Below, piece after piece: positions 54,798 to 63,120 of a stretch of 64,000 nucleotides of DNA (position 1 is the stretch's first letter; each line of letters opens with the position of its first letter). Both the position numbers and the translations under genes were made by a program. The notes under the pieces are model-generated. The model saw only the letters and a program-made list of their open reading frames with translations, was not told the origin of the DNA and did not search any database. This stretch comes from Halosimplex rubrum (GTDB lineage Archaea > Halobacteriota > Halobacteria > Halobacteriales > Haloarculaceae), in assembly GCF_013415885.1 (NCBI RefSeq), contig NZ_CP058910.1, positions 124,001 through 188,000 of the forward strand, given 5' to 3'.

Positions 54798-55661
54798 TCA
54801 CCGTCGGATCCACGCGGCGACGCGGTCGGTCCAGCGCGCGTCCGGGCCGCCGGACGCCGAGCGCGACTCGTCGGCGGCGCCGGCGACGAGACCGCCGACC
54901 GCGACCGCGACCGCCGCGAGCACGGCGCCGGCGACCACGTCGGTCGCCCAGTGGATGCCGAGGTACATCGTCGAGACGGCGATCGACGCGGCGAGGGCGG
55001 CGGCGACGGGGTACCAGCGCGGGAAGCTGTCGCGGTAGCGAGCGGCGACGAGCGCGACCGTCACCGACAGCGAGGTGTGCAGCGACGGGAAGACGTTCGT
55101 GTTCCGGTTGACGCGACCGGTCAGCAGCTGCGCCTGGGGCCAGTTCGCGTACAGCAGCGACTCGACGGCCTCGGGCGTGACGTTTCGGGGCCCGTAGGAG
55201 ATGAAGAGGACGTAACAGACGAGCCCGAGCGCGTAGTTGACCGCGTAGGCGACCAGCAGCGTCCGGACGGGGCGGTCGTCCTCGCAGGCGAGGTAGGCGA
55301 CGACGGGGAACGTCAGCAGGAAGGCGTAGCCGAAGACGTAGACGGCGCTGAAGTAGGCGGTCAGCGGCGGCGAGGCGAACGACTGGAGCCAGGCGACGAA
55401 CCCGCCTTCCAGCGCGTAGATCGCCCCGGTGATGTTCACGCCGATGAGCCAGGAGAGCTCGACGCCCACGTCGCGGACGACGCCGTTGACGGCGAGGACG
55501 ACGACCAGCAGGCCGAGCGTCGGCGCGACCGACCGGAAGTTCGCCCGAACCCGTGCGGGGGCGCCGAACAGGCCGTCGCGGCCGACGACCGCGACGAGTC
55601 CGAGCAGGTGCAGCGCGACGACGACGGCGGCGACCTGCGCGAGGACGGTGACCAGCCCCAT
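54798..55661 (-). CDS. PAP2-like phosphatase, second copy
   Basis: The 287-residue protein has about six helices and PAP2 signatures: FPSLHTSLSVTVAL (P-S-x-H) and MYLGIHWATDVVAGAV (x-H-x3-D). The N-terminal K-x6-R-P motif is weak, so it may be closer to the PAP2-3/inositol phosphorylceramide-synthase group than to the classic lipid phosphatase at 25106. Its ATG overlaps the stop of the peptide-binding protein gene by one base (TGATG), which suggests a common transcript. Possible role: removal of phosphate from a lipid-linked intermediate. Confidence 0.8.
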   Translation of the reverse strand: MGLVTVLAQVAAVVVALHLLGLVAVVGRDGLFGAPARVRANFRSVAPTLGLLVVVLAVNGVVRDVGVELSWLIGVNITGAIYALEGGFVAWLQSFASPPLTAYFSAVYVFGYAFLLTFPVVAYLACEDDRPVRTLLVAYAVNYALGLVCYVLFISYGPRNVTPEAVESLLYANWPQAQLLTGRVNRNTNVFPSLHTSLSVTVALVAARYRDSFPRWYPVAAALAASIAVSTMYLGIHWATDVVAGAVLAAVAVAVGGLVAGAADESRSASGGPDARWTDRVAAWIRR

Positions 55662-57523
55662 CAGTCCCGCTCCACGAGGGTGCCGTCGTCGTACTCGTAG
55701 CCGGCGTCGCGGAACGCCGCCCGCGCGGCGTCGGCGTCCACCGTGCCGTCCGATCCGAAGAAGGGCGTCACCGGGTGTTCGCCGTCGAACTGGAGGTCCG
55801 AGGGGACCAGCCCGGACCCGACCAGCGCGCTCGCCGCGGGCCAGGCGTAGCCGTCGAACACGTCCTCGACCAGCGCCCGCCGGTCGATCAGGTGCCCGAG
55901 CGTGTGCCGGAACCGGGGGTTCGTCAGCGGCGGCCGGCGCGTGTTGTAGCCGACGACGTACGGCGAGGGGGACCGCCCGACGACCAGGTCGACTCCCTCC
56001 GAGCGGCCGATCCGCGGGATCGTCTCGGCGCCGACGGCGGTCCCGGTCACGTCCGCGTCGCCGCTCGTGACCATCGAGACGGCCGTCTCGTCGGCGCCGA
56101 CGACGGTCACGTCGATCCGCTCGTACGGTGGAAACCCGTCCACGCCGCCGGGGAGGTCGGCGGGCGGATCGGTCGCGAGGAAGTGGTCGTCGAAGCGCTC
56201 GAACACGAGGCGGTCGCCGGGGACGTTGCGTTCGAAGGCGAACGGGCCGCTCCCGACGGGCGGGACGTTGTTGGTCACGAGCGCCTCCGAGGTGGCGCCG
56301 AAGTCGACGCCGCCGACCGAGGCCGGACCGGTCCGCTCGCGCCAGACGTGCTCGGGCAACACCGGGACCGTGAACGCGCCCGCCGCGACCGCGGCGGTGC
56401 AGTCGGCGAACCGGACCTCGACGGTCCGCCGGTCGAGCACCTCGGCGTCGGCGACGAGACTGCTCCGGCCCCGGAAGCGGGGGGCTGCCACGGCCGCGTC
56501 GCTGTCGGTCGCGGTGTCGGTCCCCTCGGTGGTCCGACCGAGCGTCACGTCAGAGAGCAGCGCGTAGGTGAGCGCCACGTCCGCTGCCGTCACCGGTTCG
56601 CCGTCGTGCCAGGTGAGCCCCTCGCGGAGCCGCACCCGCGCCCGGGGTCGCCCGTCGACGGTCTCGAACTCCCAGCCGTCGGCCAGCCACGGCTCGACCC
56701 CGCCGGACTCCGTCTCGTACCCCAGCGGGTCGTACAGCAGCCCGGTGAGGACGCCGGCCCACCGGAACTCCGCGGCCAGCGGGTTGAGGTTCTCGGTGGG
56801 TCGCCGGTCGGTGATAACCGTCCGGAGCGTCGCGGGGTCGGCGGGGGTGGCCGTGGCGGTCGCGGTGGCGCCCTCGCCGGCGGACTCCCGCCAGCCCTCG
56901 TCGAGGGAGAGATACCCCAGCGGCGAGCCGTAGTCGCTCCGGTGCCACCCGGTGAACCGCTCGCCGCGGACGGCCCGGATCTCGTCGGGGAACGCGACCA
57001 GCGAGAACGGCTGGGTCCGGGCGACGCTCCGCTGGATATCCGCCAGCGCCTCGCGCCGCGTCTCGCCGGTCGCGGTGCGCTGGTCGGCCAGCCGGTCGTC
57101 GACGTCGAGGTTCGCGTAGCCGAAGGGGTTCTGCCAGCCCGGCTCGGAGCCAAAGCGCGAGTGCAACAGCGCGTAGAGGCCGTCGCCGTCGCGGAGGCGA
57201 GCGGGGACCCGCCCGACGAACGCGTCGAAGTCGTTCCGGAGGAGCACCTGCCGGTACAGCTCCTCGGGGGCGACGGGCGTGACCGTCGATTCGAGGCCGC
57301 CAGCCCGGAACCACTCGGCGACCGACTGGGCGACCCGGAGCGCGTAGGGGTCGGCGTCGGCCGGGAGCGTCTTGATCCCGACCGACACCGGCGCCACCGA
57401 CTCCCAGCCGGTGGCCGCGCGCAGCCGGCGCATGCACCCGGCGGTCCCGAGGGTCGCCCCGGCGGCCAGCGACCGGAGCAGACGGCGACGGCGGCTCGAG
57501 GTCGGTTCGGATGACTCCCCCAT
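55661..57523 (-). CDS. ABC peptide/solute-binding lipoprotein, SBP_bac_5 type, Tat-exported
   Basis: The 620-residue protein starts with a Tat-type signal (SRRRRLLRSLAAGATLGTAGC: Arg-rich, hydrophobic, lipobox Cys at about 30). The rest follows the family 5 solute-binding plan: TLRTVITDRRPTENLNPLAAEFRWAG..., GLLYDPLGYETESGGVEPWLADGWEFE, VRLREGLTWHDGEPVTAADVALTYALL and PVGSGPFAFERNVPGDRLVFERFDDH. Such proteins bind oligopeptides, nickel or other solutes. No permease or ATPase is adjacent. The start at 57523 is favoured by the Tat signal; upstream in-frame sequence is Arg-rich. It is divergent from the arylsulfotransferase-like gene. Confidence 0.85.
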   Translation of the reverse strand: MGESSEPTSSRRRRLLRSLAAGATLGTAGCMRRLRAATGWESVAPVSVGIKTLPADADPYALRVAQSVAEWFRAGGLESTVTPVAPEELYRQVLLRNDFDAFVGRVPARLRDGDGLYALLHSRFGSEPGWQNPFGYANLDVDDRLADQRTATGETRREALADIQRSVARTQPFSLVAFPDEIRAVRGERFTGWHRSDYGSPLGYLSLDEGWRESAGEGATATATATPADPATLRTVITDRRPTENLNPLAAEFRWAGVLTGLLYDPLGYETESGGVEPWLADGWEFETVDGRPRARVRLREGLTWHDGEPVTAADVALTYALLSDVTLGRTTEGTDTATDSDAAVAAPRFRGRSSLVADAEVLDRRTVEVRFADCTAAVAAGAFTVPVLPEHVWRERTGPASVGGVDFGATSEALVTNNVPPVGSGPFAFERNVPGDRLVFERFDDHFLATDPPADLPGGVDGFPPYERIDVTVVGADETAVSMVTSGDADVTGTAVGAETIPRIGRSEGVDLVVGRSPSPYVVGYNTRRPPLTNPRFRHTLGHLIDRRALVEDVFDGYAWPAASALVGSGLVPSDLQFDGEHPVTPFFGSDGTVDADAARAAFRDAGYEYDDGTLVERD

Positions 57524-57643
57524 CTCCCCGCGGGTTCGGGAGCGACGGCTAAGTTCCTTCGGTCTGCACACGACGAGCGACGCCGTACGCCGGCCGCAGC
57601 CGCCAGCGATCCATCTTAGTAGCCCGGCGTCGTCCAACCGAGC

Positions 57644-59029
57644 ATGTCCGACCGACGGACCGTCCGACTGTCGCTGGCCGCGGTCGTACTCCTCGCAGCG
57701 GGGACCGTCGCGGTCGGATACGTCGCGGCCGAGCGGTCGAGCGACCGGGTGACCGGCGACCCGTCGGTCGAGCAGGCGCTGCGGTCGGGAGACAACTCGC
57801 CGGTCGTCGGCCCCCGCGACAACCGCACCGTGGTCGCGACCGACTCGAACGCCTTCGTCAGCGACGAGAACGACGGCCCGCGCGCCCAGGCCGAACTCGT
57901 CGCGTTCGACCGCGACGGGAGCGTCTACTACCACGAGAACGACCACACCCGCTACTGGGACGTCGACCCCGTCGCCGGGACGAACTCGACGGTCGAGTTC
58001 GTCTACGCCGACCACCTCGACGCCGAGGAGTGCGACGGCTCCGTCTGCACGCGCAACGGCGTCGAGCGCGTCAACCTCACCACCGGCGAGTCGACCGACG
58101 TATTCAGCCGCGTCACGCCCGGCAAGCACTCGACCCGCTGGCACGACGTCGACCGGATCGACGACGAGCGCCTGCTCGTCGCCGACATCGACCGCGACCG
58201 CGTCTTCGTCGTCAACACGACGACGGAGCTGATCACCTGGGAGTGGGGCGCCCAGGCCGCCTTCGACGTCGACAGCGGCGGCCCCTTCCCCGCCGACTGG
58301 ACGCACCTCAACGACGTGGAACACGTCGAGATAGCGGGTCGCGACGCCGCGATGGTCAGCCTCCGCAACCACGACCAGGTCGCCTTCGTCGACTTCGAGC
58401 GGGGGCTGATGGAGAACTGGACGCTCGGCGAGGACGGCGACCACGACACCCTCTACGAGCAGCACAACCCCGATTACGTCCCGCCCGAGCGGGGCGGCCC
58501 CGCCCTCCTCGTGGCCGACTCCGAGAACGGCCGCGTCGTCGAGTACCAGCGCGAGGACGGGGAGTGGAACCGGTCGTGGACCTGGAGCGACGCGCGCATG
58601 CAGTGGCCGCGGGACGCCGACCGCCTGCCGAACGGCCACACGCTGGTCACCGACTCCAACGGCGACCGGGCCTTCGAGGTGGACCGGTCGGGCGAGGTGG
58701 TGTGGACCGCCACGATCGGGTTCCCCTACGAGGCCGAACGGCTGGGGACCGGCGCGGAGAGCGCGGGCGGCCGGAGCGCGGCCACGCTCGACCTGCCGAG
58801 TCGGGAGCCGGACCGGGCGAACCTGTCGCTGTCCGGCCGCGCCATGGCGTCGCTGCCGCCGTCGGTCGAAAACGGGATCGCCTACGTCTTCCCGCGCTGG
58901 GTCGGCCCCCTCGAAGGGGTCGCCGTCGTCGCGCTCGTCGCCGCCGTCCTCCTCTGGGCCCGCCTGGAGTACCGCTGGTCGAACGCGTCGGTCGGGATCC
59001 GGAACCCGCTCCGGATCGAACGGAGATGA
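57644..59029 (+). CDS. Arylsulfotransferase-like membrane-anchored protein
   Basis: The 461-residue protein has an N-terminal membrane helix (about 7-27), a repetitive beta-propeller-type domain with SVYYHENDHTRYWDVDP, GKHSTRWHDVDRIDDERLLVADIDRDRVFVVN, WTHLNDVEHVEIAGRDAAMVSLRNHDQVAFVD and WPRDADRLPNGHTLVTDSNGDRAFEVD, and a C-terminal helix (about 427-447). This matches the ASST/arylsulfotransferase (PQQ-like propeller) family, where a His transfers sulfate between phenolic compounds. Outside-facing location is likely. Its 3' end overlaps the next gene (ATGA). Whether it is a sulfotransferase or a non-enzymatic propeller is open. Confidence 0.75.
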   Translation: MSDRRTVRLSLAAVVLLAAGTVAVGYVAAERSSDRVTGDPSVEQALRSGDNSPVVGPRDNRTVVATDSNAFVSDENDGPRAQAELVAFDRDGSVYYHENDHTRYWDVDPVAGTNSTVEFVYADHLDAEECDGSVCTRNGVERVNLTTGESTDVFSRVTPGKHSTRWHDVDRIDDERLLVADIDRDRVFVVNTTTELITWEWGAQAAFDVDSGGPFPADWTHLNDVEHVEIAGRDAAMVSLRNHDQVAFVDFERGLMENWTLGEDGDHDTLYEQHNPDYVPPERGGPALLVADSENGRVVEYQREDGEWNRSWTWSDARMQWPRDADRLPNGHTLVTDSNGDRAFEVDRSGEVVWTATIGFPYEAERLGTGAESAGGRSAATLDLPSREPDRANLSLSGRAMASLPPSVENGIAYVFPRWVGPLEGVAVVALVAAVLLWARLEYRWSNASVGIRNPLRIERR

Positions 59030-60609
59030 CGGCGGCCGACACCATCGACCGCGACCGGTCGCTCGCGCTGGCCGCTCGACTGCGCCACGCGACACCGCTG
59101 GACGGGCGCGACGCGCGGTGGCTGGGACTGGCGCTGCTCCCGGGCGTCGTCGTCGTCGCCGTCTACCTGACGACCAACCCCTATCCGGCCTACGGCGGCG
59201 GGCTGTACGCGCGGATCGCCGCCGCGATCGCCGCGAACGGGTACGCCCCGCCCGCGACGGTCGACGGCTACGCGGTCACCGTCCCCTTCGCGTACCCGCC
59301 GCTGGGGTTCTACGTCTTCGCGCTCGCCCTCGACCTGGGGTTCGACCCCGTCACCGTCACCCGGTTTCTGCCCTCCCTCGCCGTCGTCGCGGCGCTGGTG
59401 CCGGCGTACCTGCTCGGACGGGACCACACCGACTCGCGTCCGGCCGGGACCGCGACCGCGGCGCTGATAGCGCTGAACCCGCAGGTGCTGGAGTGGCACG
59501 TCTCCGCGGGCGGCGTCGTCCGCGGGTTCGCCTTCCTGTACGCCCTGACCGCGGTCTACGCCGGGTATCACGTCTTCACCGGCGGCGGTCGGCGAGCGCT
59601 GCTGGGGGGCGCCGTCGCGGTCGCGCTAACGGGGCTCACCCACCCGACCTACACCCTGTTCGTCGTCGCGAGCTATCTCGTGTTCTGGGGCGGGCTCGAC
59701 CGGACGCTCGGGGGACTCGCCCGGGGGACGGCCGTCGGCGTCGGCGCGCTCGCGCTGGCGAGCCCCTGGCTCGGCTGGGTCGTCGCGACCCACGGCCCCG
59801 GCGTCTTCACCGCGGCCGCCGGGACCCACGGCGGGCTCGGCGGCGGCCTCGACGCCCTCCTCGCCGGTCCCTCGTGGGTCAGGCTCGTTCCGCTCGCGCT
59901 CGCCGGCGGGGCGCTGGCGCTCCGCCGCGACGCGACGGTGGCGGCCTGGGTCGTCGTCGCGACGCTGCTGTTCTTCCAGGTCCGGTTCGCCTACGCCGTC
60001 GGCGCCCTGGCGGTAGCGGTCGCGGGCGTCGGCGTCGCCGAGCGCCTCGCCCGGCGGGAGGGGAGCGCGTTCGCCTCGCCGGACCGCCGCGCCGCCGCTG
60101 CCGCGGCGCTCGTCGCCCTCGCGACCGTCGCCGGCGGGGCGTCCTTCGCCGCGGCGACGACGTCGACGACCGACGCGACCACGCCCTCGTTCCTGGACGA
60201 CGAGTCGGTCGCGGCCGCCGAGTGGGCGGCCGCCGAGACGCACGCTGGCGCGCGATTCCTCGTGCTCGGCGACGCCGCCGAGTGGTTCCCCGCGCTGTCG
60301 GACCGGTCGATCGCCGTCGGCCCGTGGGGCGTCGAGTGGGTCAGCGCGACCGCCTACGACCGCCAGTTGGCCGCGTTCAGGGCCGCCTCGACGTGCGACA
60401 GCGCCGCCTGCGTCGCGTCGGCGGTCGCGACCGTCGACGCCGACCCCGACTACGTCGTCGTCCCGAAGGGCCGCTACACCGTCCGCGGCGTCGGTGTCGT
60501 TCAGTTCGGCACGCTCGACCGCTCGTTCGCGGTCGCCGACGGGTGGACGCGCGTCCACGGGAACGACGGGGTCGCGATCTATCGAGCGACTCCCGACGCC
60601 GACGAGTGA
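59026..60609 (+). CDS. Polytopic GT-C-like membrane glycosyltransferase candidate
   Basis: The 527-residue protein has ten or more membrane helices (for example LLPGVVVVAVYL, PYPAYGGGLYARIAAAIAANGYAPP, LTGLTHPTYTLFVVASYLVFW, AVAVAGVGVAERL) and a soluble C-terminal domain (about 400-527) after YDRQLAAFRAAS. The topology and the early acidic-poor loop resemble lipid-linked-sugar glycosyltransferases of the GT-C fold, but no DxD or E motif is unmistakable. ATGA overlap with the arylsulfotransferase-like gene shows coupling. Together they may modify an extracellular glycan or lipid, one adding sugar and the other sulfate. This is inference from topology and context. Confidence 0.6.
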   Translation: MTAADTIDRDRSLALAARLRHATPLDGRDARWLGLALLPGVVVVAVYLTTNPYPAYGGGLYARIAAAIAANGYAPPATVDGYAVTVPFAYPPLGFYVFALALDLGFDPVTVTRFLPSLAVVAALVPAYLLGRDHTDSRPAGTATAALIALNPQVLEWHVSAGGVVRGFAFLYALTAVYAGYHVFTGGGRRALLGGAVAVALTGLTHPTYTLFVVASYLVFWGGLDRTLGGLARGTAVGVGALALASPWLGWVVATHGPGVFTAAAGTHGGLGGGLDALLAGPSWVRLVPLALAGGALALRRDATVAAWVVVATLLFFQVRFAYAVGALAVAVAGVGVAERLARREGSAFASPDRRAAAAAALVALATVAGGASFAAATTSTTDATTPSFLDDESVAAAEWAAAETHAGARFLVLGDAAEWFPALSDRSIAVGPWGVEWVSATAYDRQLAAFRAASTCDSAACVASAVATVDADPDYVVVPKGRYTVRGVGVVQFGTLDRSFAVADGWTRVHGNDGVAIYRATPDADE

Positions 60610-60701: not shown

Positions 60702-61667
60702 ATGCCCTCCATCCAGACGAACGGACTGACGAAGACCTTCGGCGAGGACGTGGTCGCCGTCGACGACCTCGACCTCACTATCGAGGAAGGCGAGATCTTC
60801 GGCTTCCTCGGGCCCAACGGCGCGGGGAAGTCGACGACGATCAACATGCTGCTCGACTTCATCCGGCCGACCGCGGGGTCGGCCCAGGTGTTCGGCATGG
60901 ACGCCCAGCGCGAGTGCGCCGCCATCCGCGAGCGCATCGGCGTCCTCCCCGAAGGGTACGGCTTCGACGACTACCTCACCGGCCGCGAGTACATGGAGTG
61001 GGCCGTCGAGACCAAGGACGCCGACGACGACCCCGAACGGCTGCTCGACCTCGTGGGCATCCGCGACGACGCGGGCCGCGTGGCCGCCGGCTACTCGAAG
61101 GGGATGCAACAGCGCCTCGCGTTCGGGATGGCGCTGGCCGACGACCCCGATCTGTTGATCCTCGACGAGCCCTCGACGGGGCTGGACCCCAACGGCATCC
61201 AGCACATGCGGTCGGTCATCCGCGACCGCGCCAGTGAGGGGACGACCGTCTTCTTCTCCAGTCACATCCTCTCGGAGGTCGAGGCGGTCTGTGACCGCGT
61301 CGGCGTGATGAACGAGGGGGAACTGGTCGCCATCGACTCCATCGAGGGGCTGCGCGAGAGCGCGACCGGCCAGGCCACCATCGAACTGGAGTGCGCCGAG
61401 GCGCCGCGAGCCGACGGGGTCGCCGACATCCCGGGCGTCTCGGCGGTCGACGTGGCCGACACGACGCTGACCGCCGAGTGTTCCGACCCGAGCGCGAAGG
61501 TCGAGGTGGTCAAGCGAGTCGACGAGCGGGTCGAGGTCGTCGACATCCTCGCGGACAACACCTCGCTGGAGGAGCTGTTCAACCAGTTCACCGGCGGCGG
61601 CCGCGACGGCGACGGCTCGGTCGGCGAGGGGATCGACCTCGAAGACGCCCAGGGGGCCTCGGCATGA
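60702..61667 (+). CDS. ABC transporter ATP-binding protein
   Basis: The 321-residue protein is a typical ABC-2 partner ATPase: Walker A FLGPNGAGKSTTINML, signature YSKGMQQRLAFGMALADDPDLLILDEPSTGLDPNG (signature plus Walker B), D-loop, and the switch His in VFFSSHILSEVEAVC. A C-terminal region (about 230-321) with MNEGELVAIDSIEGLRES and TTLTAECSDPSAKVEVVKRVDE resembles the DUF4162-type C-terminal domain. It exports an unknown substrate with the downstream permease, whose ATG overlaps its stop by 4 nt. Upstream AAAAAACACTTACATC (60654-60669) may be its promoter. Confidence 0.9.
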   Translation: MPSIQTNGLTKTFGEDVVAVDDLDLTIEEGEIFGFLGPNGAGKSTTINMLLDFIRPTAGSAQVFGMDAQRECAAIRERIGVLPEGYGFDDYLTGREYMEWAVETKDADDDPERLLDLVGIRDDAGRVAAGYSKGMQQRLAFGMALADDPDLLILDEPSTGLDPNGIQHMRSVIRDRASEGTTVFFSSHILSEVEAVCDRVGVMNEGELVAIDSIEGLRESATGQATIELECAEAPRADGVADIPGVSAVDVADTTLTAECSDPSAKVEVVKRVDERVEVVDILADNTSLEELFNQFTGGGRDGDGSVGEGIDLEDAQGASA

Positions 61668-62545
61668 GTACGGTCACGGTCGCCAAGAAGGACTTCAAGG
61701 CCGCCCGCCGGTCGAAGCTGCTCTGGGCGGCGGCGATCGTCCTCGGCCTGATCGCGGCGTTCGTCGGCTACGTCTCCGGGAACGCGTCCGGCGGCGACGC
61801 CGCGCAGGTCCGGGCGCTCTTTCGCGTCCTGACGCTGCTGCTCGCCGTCCTCCTGCCGATCGTCGCGCTGGTGGCGAGCTATCTCGCCATCGCGGGCGAG
61901 CGCGAGGGCGGCGGGATCAAGTTCCTGCTCTCCCTGCCGAACACCCGCCGGAGCGTCTTCGTCGGGAAGCTGCTGAGCCGCAACGGCATCGTCGCCGGCG
62001 GCGTCGCGTTCATGTACGTCGCGGCGATCAGCACGGCGCTGACCCGCCACGGGGCGTTCCCGGCCGCCGTCGTCTTCGGGACGCTGCTGATAACGCTCGC
62101 CTACGGGTCGACGTTCGTCAGCATCGCGCTGGCGATGTCCTCGGCGGCCGCCTCCCGCAGCCGCGCCATCGCCGGCGCCTTCGGGACGTACTTCCTGCTG
62201 GTCATCCTCTACGTCTTCCCGGTCGCGTCGGTCGGCGACATCGCCCGCTGGCTCCACACGACCCTGCTCGGCGCCAGTCCGAACCCCGACCTGTACAACG
62301 CCGTCCAGTACACCAGCCCGTATCTGGCCTACCGCAAGGCCGTCAACCTCGTGATGCCGGCCGAGATGCGCCAGATCGTCTTCTATTCGAGCCTGCCCGA
62401 CGACATCAGCTACGGGTCGCCGGCGGCCAACGAGGTGTTGCCGCTGTACCTGCAGGACCAGGCCTCGCTGGTCGTCCTCGCCTTCTGGCTGGTGGTACCG
62501 CTCGCGATCGGCTACGCGCTGTTCGAGAGGGCTGATCTCGAATGA
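61664..62545 (+). CDS. ABC-2 type permease
   Basis: The 293-residue protein has six hydrophobic segments (about 20-42, 53-75, 98-118, 127-150, 158-180, 265-285). ABC-2 features are visible in KDFKAARRSKLLWAAA and LAIAGEREGGGIKFLLSLPNTRRSVFVGKL, where the S-L-P-x-x-R-x-x-x-F-x-G-K loop is typical of ABC-2 exporters. It is encoded between the ATPase and the 192-residue partner, both with 4-nt ATGA overlaps, so all three form one operon. The substrate is unknown; many haloarchaeal ABC-2 systems export drugs, lipids or copper-site maturation factors. Confidence 0.9.
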   Translation: MSTVTVAKKDFKAARRSKLLWAAAIVLGLIAAFVGYVSGNASGGDAAQVRALFRVLTLLLAVLLPIVALVASYLAIAGEREGGGIKFLLSLPNTRRSVFVGKLLSRNGIVAGGVAFMYVAAISTALTRHGAFPAAVVFGTLLITLAYGSTFVSIALAMSSAAASRSRAIAGAFGTYFLLVILYVFPVASVGDIARWLHTTLLGASPNPDLYNAVQYTSPYLAYRKAVNLVMPAEMRQIVFYSSLPDDISYGSPAANEVLPLYLQDQASLVVLAFWLVVPLAIGYALFERADLE

Positions 62546-63120
62546 ACCGGCGAAGCCAACTCGGCACGGGGCTGGCGGTCCTGGCGGTCGTGCTGTTCGC
62601 CGTCCCCGCCTTCTTCCCGGTCCAGCCGATGCTGACCCACGACACCGGGGAGACCGCGCCGGCCCCGCCGGACGAACTGCGACAGCAGGGCTACGAGATC
62701 GTCGCCTACGAGAACCTCTCCGAGCGCGGCCAGGAGCTGTACGTGACGACCCTGGAGAACGACGGCGAGTACCGCGTCGCCCTCGGCGAGGGCGCCGACG
62801 ACTTCGGCTACCCGACCGACGGGGAAGTCCGCGCGATGTACGACAACGGGACCGAGCCGGGGATCGTCGTCGAACGCCCCGAGGACGCGGAGTCGCTGCC
62901 GCCCTCGGACGAGCGGTTCTACGGCTACCCGAGCGACGACGAGGGGCTGAACGAGTCCCAGGCCGAACAGCGCAGACAGCAGATCGAGCGCTACGACGCG
63001 ATGAGCACCCGGACCGCGGAGCCGCCGCTGGGCGCGACCCCGCAGCTGATCCGCCTCGTCTCGGTCCTGCTGGCGGTGCTGTCGCTCGGCGTCGGCGGCT
63101 ACCTGCTCTCCTCGAAGTAG
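62542..63120 (+). CDS. Two-helix extracellular-loop membrane protein of the ABC-2 operon
   Basis: The 192-residue protein has a helix near each end (about 8-28 and 168-189) and a hydrophilic loop between them with conserved-looking DELRQQGYEIVAYENLSERGQELYVTTLENDGEYRV and DERFYGYPSDDEGL. The ends suggest that the loop is outside. Its ATG overlaps the permease stop (ATGA), so it is probably a third component of the exporter, perhaps binding substrate on the outside. I know no named family for it. Confidence 0.72.
   Translation: MNRRSQLGTGLAVLAVVLFAVPAFFPVQPMLTHDTGETAPAPPDELRQQGYEIVAYENLSERGQELYVTTLENDGEYRVALGEGADDFGYPTDGEVRAMYDNGTEPGIVVERPEDAESLPPSDERFYGYPSDDEGLNESQAEQRRQQIERYDAMSTRTAEPPLGATPQLIRLVSVLLAVLSLGVGGYLLSSK

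Follow-up and report, generated by a model that had tools for sequence, protein, structure and literature searches.

The data point to an undescribed haloarchaeal two-gene membrane system, encoded within a 64,000-nucleotide stretch (the window) of the haloarchaeal chromosome of Halosimplex rubrum, which measures 4.48 Mb. The core of this system would consist of a Tat-exported, circularly permuted solute-binding lipoprotein which captures a ligand for, or gates, an integral membrane enzyme of the PAP2_3/Aur1-like type, a reading to which we assign a probability of about 0.5. Among the open-access papers searched, none turned up that describes permuted family-5 solute-binding proteins (SBPs) or a pairing of an SBP with a PAP2 enzyme. 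The locus is organized as follows.

54798..55661, minus strand: P0001, PAP2_3/Aur1-like integral membrane enzyme, 287 aa (Pfam PAP2_3)
55661..57523, minus strand: Tat lipoprotein of circularly permuted family-5 solute-binding type, 620 aa (SBP_bac_5, profile order tests, AlphaFold2)
57524..57643, no strand: divergent intergenic region of 120 bp between the lipoprotein and ASST-like genes
57644..59029, plus strand: P0003, 461 aa, ASST-like beta-propeller carrying a hydrophobic anchor at either terminus (PF14269)
59026..60609, plus strand: P0004, polytopic membrane protein of predicted GT-C fold, 527 aa (AlphaFold2 and structure matches)

Both co-directional gene pairs overlap, by 1 nt for the PAP2 and lipoprotein genes and by 4 nt for those of the propeller and the GT-C protein, and the locus is therefore likely to comprise two bicistrons in divergent orientation. 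In the intergenic region, CTTAG-like motifs noticed by eye ~25-30 bp 5' of both divergent start codons are candidate TATA elements. Gene calls recover all four proteins listed by the first-pass annotation as it described them (54798-60609), including an arylsulfotransferase-like propeller with membrane anchors overlapping a GT-C-like protein. The range it assigned to them, 55661-60609, holds the lipoprotein, the propeller and the GT-C protein and leaves the PAP2 gene (54798-55661, minus strand) just outside. Genes for an ABC ATPase and for a membrane protein of ABC-2-like type lie 3' of the GT-C gene (60702-63120); the membrane protein is seen beside the GT-C gene within the genus only, and both are probably unrelated to the SBP.

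The lipoprotein is homologous to the core of family-5 SBPs, scoring 160 bits against SBP_bac_5 (PF00496, cut-off 32.4). Its AlphaFold2 model (pLDDT 85, pTM 0.83) matches family-5 SBP structures with Z values of ~20-22, which indicates a shared fold at the level of the prediction. The best Pfam stretch, covering positions 2-284 of the 368 of the profile, falls in the lipoprotein's C-terminal part. An alignment of 33 homologues from many haloarchaeal families delimits the following segments.

57434..57523, minus strand: twin-arginine signal and lipobox Cys30 (33 relatives, all with R12, R13, G29 and C30)
56906..57394, minus strand: N-terminal segment, homologous to the last third of the chain in ordinary family-5 SBPs (profile A2)
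56834..56905, minus strand: low-complexity linker bridging the original C- and N-termini (pLDDT and lengths in relatives)
55664..56833, minus strand: C-terminal segment, homologous to the first two thirds of the chain in ordinary family-5 SBPs (profile A3)

This order of segments is circularly permuted with respect to the canonical one. Profile A2, built from the N-terminal ~163 residues, retrieved 32 PDB sequences, every one of family-5 SBP fold and always matched in its C-terminal part (chain residues ~340-578), while profile A3, built from the rest of the protein, matched chain residues ~20-340. With VIA and chain order kept, only residues ~227-620 of the model align, onto chain residues ~1-370. 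Residues 213-227 of the linker have pLDDT values below 50 in the AlphaFold2 model, and the length of the linker differs among relatives. As an order control, the lipoprotein profile was built twice, once with the segments in native order and once rotated. L184, a canonical SBP of haloarchaea, is matched end to end by the rotated profile with 158.7 bits versus 108.7 bits for the native one, and permuted relatives favour the native order (for instance, 241.2 versus 177.5 bits). For the canonical proteins L188, L074 and L080 the two profiles tied, and the control is therefore supportive and not uniform. A gene-calling artefact was rejected as the cause of the permutation, as all 33 homologues are single-frame proteins running from a Tat signal and lipobox to a common short tail, AGYRYDxxGxL. 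Opp/Dpp/Nik proteins (family 5, cluster C) share the fold and the sequence family (PF00496) of the lipoprotein, whereas their segments follow the opposite order and permease and ATPase genes normally adjoin them.

Among haloarchaea, the permutation extends beyond the lipoproteins linked to PAP2 enzymes. Permuted SBPs are also encoded in complete or near-complete permease-permease-ATPase-ATPase operons (L040:9145-10860 and the SBP genes of most of L169-L187), a set picked by collinear alignment to the permuted profile which consequently documents existence and not frequency. A restriction of the permutation to the PAP2-linked clade was thus discarded. As to a single origin of the permutation, in a tree of the core region the permuted ABC-linked sequences are not separated from the canonical ones. 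Among 197 genomes sampled from the phylum, no full-length match was obtained outside haloarchaea at E <= 1e-30.

The second line of evidence comes from inheritance. Among 146 haloarchaeal genomes, the lipoprotein is encoded in 79, 78 of which also contain the PAP2 orthologue, as compared with 0/67 of the genomes lacking the lipoprotein; in the lone exception (G048) the gene runs up to the final base of the contig. This co-occurrence corresponds to a Fisher p of ~2e-41, a value which ignores phylogeny and hence overstates independence, the pattern still spanning many families. The PAP2 gene directly follows that of the lipoprotein in 30 of the 36 neighbourhoods first inspected, with unrelated genes beyond, and in 76/80 named loci from GTDB genomes, the gap being mostly -4 to +8 nt. 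The four exceptions are L090, where the start of the PAP2 gene lies before a contig end, L097 and L101, which have no nearby PAP2 gene, and L158, where it is ~2 kb away; G055 and G058 are among the few genomes holding the two genes apart. PAP2-linked lipoproteins form a single clade in the tree (support 100/97), and within the window no ABC permease or ATPase gene shares an operon with the pair. The lipoprotein and the PAP2 enzyme are thus a tight bicistron and an obligate unit. Duplicated arrangements, SBP-PAP2-SBP or PAP2-SBP-PAP2, are found in some haloarchaea (L029, L030, L152, L161 and similar loci). In addition, a co-directional gene immediately 5' of that for the permuted SBP encodes a membrane protein of ~407 aa without Pfam match (designated C2) in 31 of the 80 named loci, such as L052, L048 and L051; this protein may represent a third component in some lineages.

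The partner enzyme, P0001, was assigned to PAP2_3 (PF14378) with 67.3 bits (cut-off 27), and all 30 aligned relatives match this family. It carries three conserved motifs.

55182..55196, minus strand: PAP2 motif 1, YGPRN, residues 156-160 (G157, P158, R159 and N160 invariant in 30 sequences)
55077..55091, minus strand: PAP2 motif 2, FPSLH, residues 191-195, with the putative catalytic His195 (invariant)
54939..54974, minus strand: PAP2 motif 3, STMYLGIHWATD, residues 230-241, with the putative His237/Asp241 (H237 and D241 invariant)

Motif 2 aligns with FPSGH of the phosphatase PgpB and with FPSLH of the inositol phosphorylceramide synthase AUR1, and the H237/D241 motif aligns with both membrane enzymes as well. 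The third motif of the PgpB type, SRxxxxxHxxxD, is found incomplete, an invariant Thr (Thr231) standing at the position of the Arg in the PgpB alignment, as is likewise the case in Aur1. All motif residues are kept in the 30 diverse sequences. Judging from an estimate of loop charges, the motifs appear to face the extracytoplasmic side, and membership in PAP2_3 would fit a phosphatase or a transferase alike.

We infer a physical partnership between the two proteins, together with its substrate and chemistry, along the following lines. The lipoprotein, Tat-exported and lipid-anchored, and the catalytic residues of the PAP2 enzyme would share the same outer compartment. The lipoprotein would capture a putative ligand, such as a lipid head group, a phosphorylated solute or an acceptor, and either present it to the PAP2 enzyme or gate the latter, which would transfer or remove a phosphate-containing group in the outer leaflet. 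In the simplest reading, a binding protein devoid of transporter would have become the dedicated partner of a membrane enzyme acting on phosphate groups. The more specific proposal of a two-component machine, with the permuted lipoprotein delivering the substrate to the PAP2 enzyme or controlling it as an SBP-dependent lipid phosphotransferase or phosphatase without a transporter, is a tentative one, to be held at slightly less than even odds.

A precedent for such a role is provided by LpqW, a lipoprotein acting in mycobacterial PIM/lipomannan synthesis, which has been suggested to regulate the balance between higher PIMs and lipomannan, opposite the GT-C enzyme PimE (PMC3229680). LpqW (PDB 2grv) is also a lipid-anchored protein of family-5 SBP fold; it was matched by profile A2 and by structure comparison (Z 19.4), a likeness at the profile and fold level. 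Unlike the lipoprotein studied here, it shows the normal segment order in these profiles, and a PAP2 partner has not been described for it. By analogy, LpqW illustrates how a lipoprotein of this fold may function in glycolipid synthesis and not in transport, and the lipoprotein would most likely, in a comparable manner, capture a ligand for the PAP2 enzyme or regulate it at the outer membrane face. Natural permutation has also been reported in Tp0684/MglB-2 from Treponema pallidum, a lipid-anchored ABC-type binding protein (PMC4990184). In contrast to the haloarchaeal lipoprotein, Tp0684/MglB-2 has a glucose-binding fold of Type I/cluster B with a different permutation site and is ascribed to an ABC transporter, not paired with a PAP2 enzyme.

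A transport function was weighed in two forms. Classification as an ordinary Dpp/Opp protein was ranked below the preferred reading because adjacent ABC genes are lacking. Alternatively, it could be a permuted SBP of an ABC importer whose permeases are encoded at a distance, the PAP2 enzyme dephosphorylating the ligand before uptake or performing an unrelated lipid chore. Family-5 binding proteins are able to feed ABC transporters encoded elsewhere, about a dozen further SBP_bac_5 genes occur in this genome, AccA sugar-phosphate binders are among the structure matches of the lipoprotein, and permuted SBPs do occur in full ABC operons, as described above. However, the PAP2-linked lipoproteins form a clade of their own, ABC parts lie within 5 kb of the pair in just 5/80 named loci, and one-to-one inheritance links the lipoprotein to a membrane enzyme and not to a transporter. 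Distant permeases are a serious possibility which we nevertheless regard as rather unlikely.

A broader proposal, which was that of the first-pass annotation, is that all four genes form an extracellular system for modifying glycans or lipids, in which sugars would be transferred, sulfate groups added, lipid phosphates recycled and solutes bound. In 14/80 named loci the pair has both an ASST-like and a GT-C gene next to it, with the divergent arrangement the same in most of them, and all four genes are present in Halosimplex, Halobellus, Halolamina, Halegenticoccus, Halorussus, Halorarius, Haladaptatus and other genera; the GT-C gene alone accompanies the pair in 5 loci. P0003 exceeds the cut-off of PF14269 (29.7 versus 27 bits) and falls under that of PF05935; each of the 19 relatives aligned also matches the ASST family. 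A propeller without the catalytic His had been named as grounds for refuting the proposal, and these grounds do not arise: H101, H124, H162, H167, H221 and H274 are conserved, several being invariant, including those within WTHxND and EQHNP, and they are candidates for a counterpart of the catalytic His of E. coli ASST. A PDB profile search with the ASST-like set matched no solved ASST. These propellers are a multi-copy haloarchaeal family, with 6 matches in this genome and 16 in G006.

Regarding P0004, its GT-C score lies below Pfam cut-offs, though the structure prediction bears out the proposed class: the AlphaFold2 model (pTM 0.87) matches Pmt4, STT3, AglB and ArnT with Z values of 19-22, and the predicted fold is clearly GT-C, as in these enzymes and in GPI transamidase subunit U (PIG-U). 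Active Pmt/OST/ArnT enzymes have an acidic catalytic residue in their first extracytoplasmic loop, which corresponds here to the following segment.

59167..59301, plus strand: residues 48-92 of P0004, its first extracytoplasmic loop (alignment of 24 relatives)

In contrast to active Pmt4, STT3, AglB and ArnT, this loop (NPYPAYGxGLY ... FAYPPL) contains no conserved Asp or Glu within residues 48-92 in 24/24 sequences, and the lack of an acidic catalytic residue, which had been named as refuting the proposal, thus holds for the usual position. Owing to this absence, P0004 may lack activity or work differently from other proteins of GT-C fold, as is assumed for PIG-U.

The distribution of these genes also argues against a four-gene system. 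Most of the 80 named loci with the pair have neither an ASST-like nor a GT-C gene, and among the 146 genomes the GT-C gene is found in 16/79 with the pair versus 20/67 without it (p = 0.25). Its presence is not tied to the lipoprotein-PAP2 pair, and the genes for the propeller and the GT-C protein form an accessory module that can be separated from it, present here and in some other lineages. Since the GT-C gene fails to co-occur with the pair, a four-gene sulfation cluster was dropped as the main reading and is now improbable, the predicted GT-C fold and the conserved propeller histidines notwithstanding. From the initial proposal, action outside the cytoplasm stays plausible, while glycan sulfation by four genes is mostly unsupported, nothing having been seen that links sulfation or sugar transfer to the pair; the permutation, and the fact that the lipoprotein-PAP2 half alone is obligate, had been overlooked. 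Finally, transporter-less binding proteins are known as sensors, but a sensing unit, in which the lipoprotein would sense an external ligand with the PAP2 protein as a passive or moonlighting membrane partner, is very improbable given the full retention of the PAP2 motif residues and the lack of any consistently linked receptor or kinase in the neighbourhoods examined.

If the two-gene reading holds true, solute-binding proteins would have membrane lipid enzymes as a second type of partner, and circular permutation would have rewired the widespread fold of Opp/Dpp binding proteins in haloarchaea. It would also suggest that the annotation 'peptide ABC transporter substrate-binding' conceals an unnoticed topology in many haloarchaeal proteins and, for the PAP2-linked clade, that the annotated function in peptide ABC transport is possibly wrong. 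The pair would also turn the remodelling of the archaeal outer leaflet into a genetically testable question.
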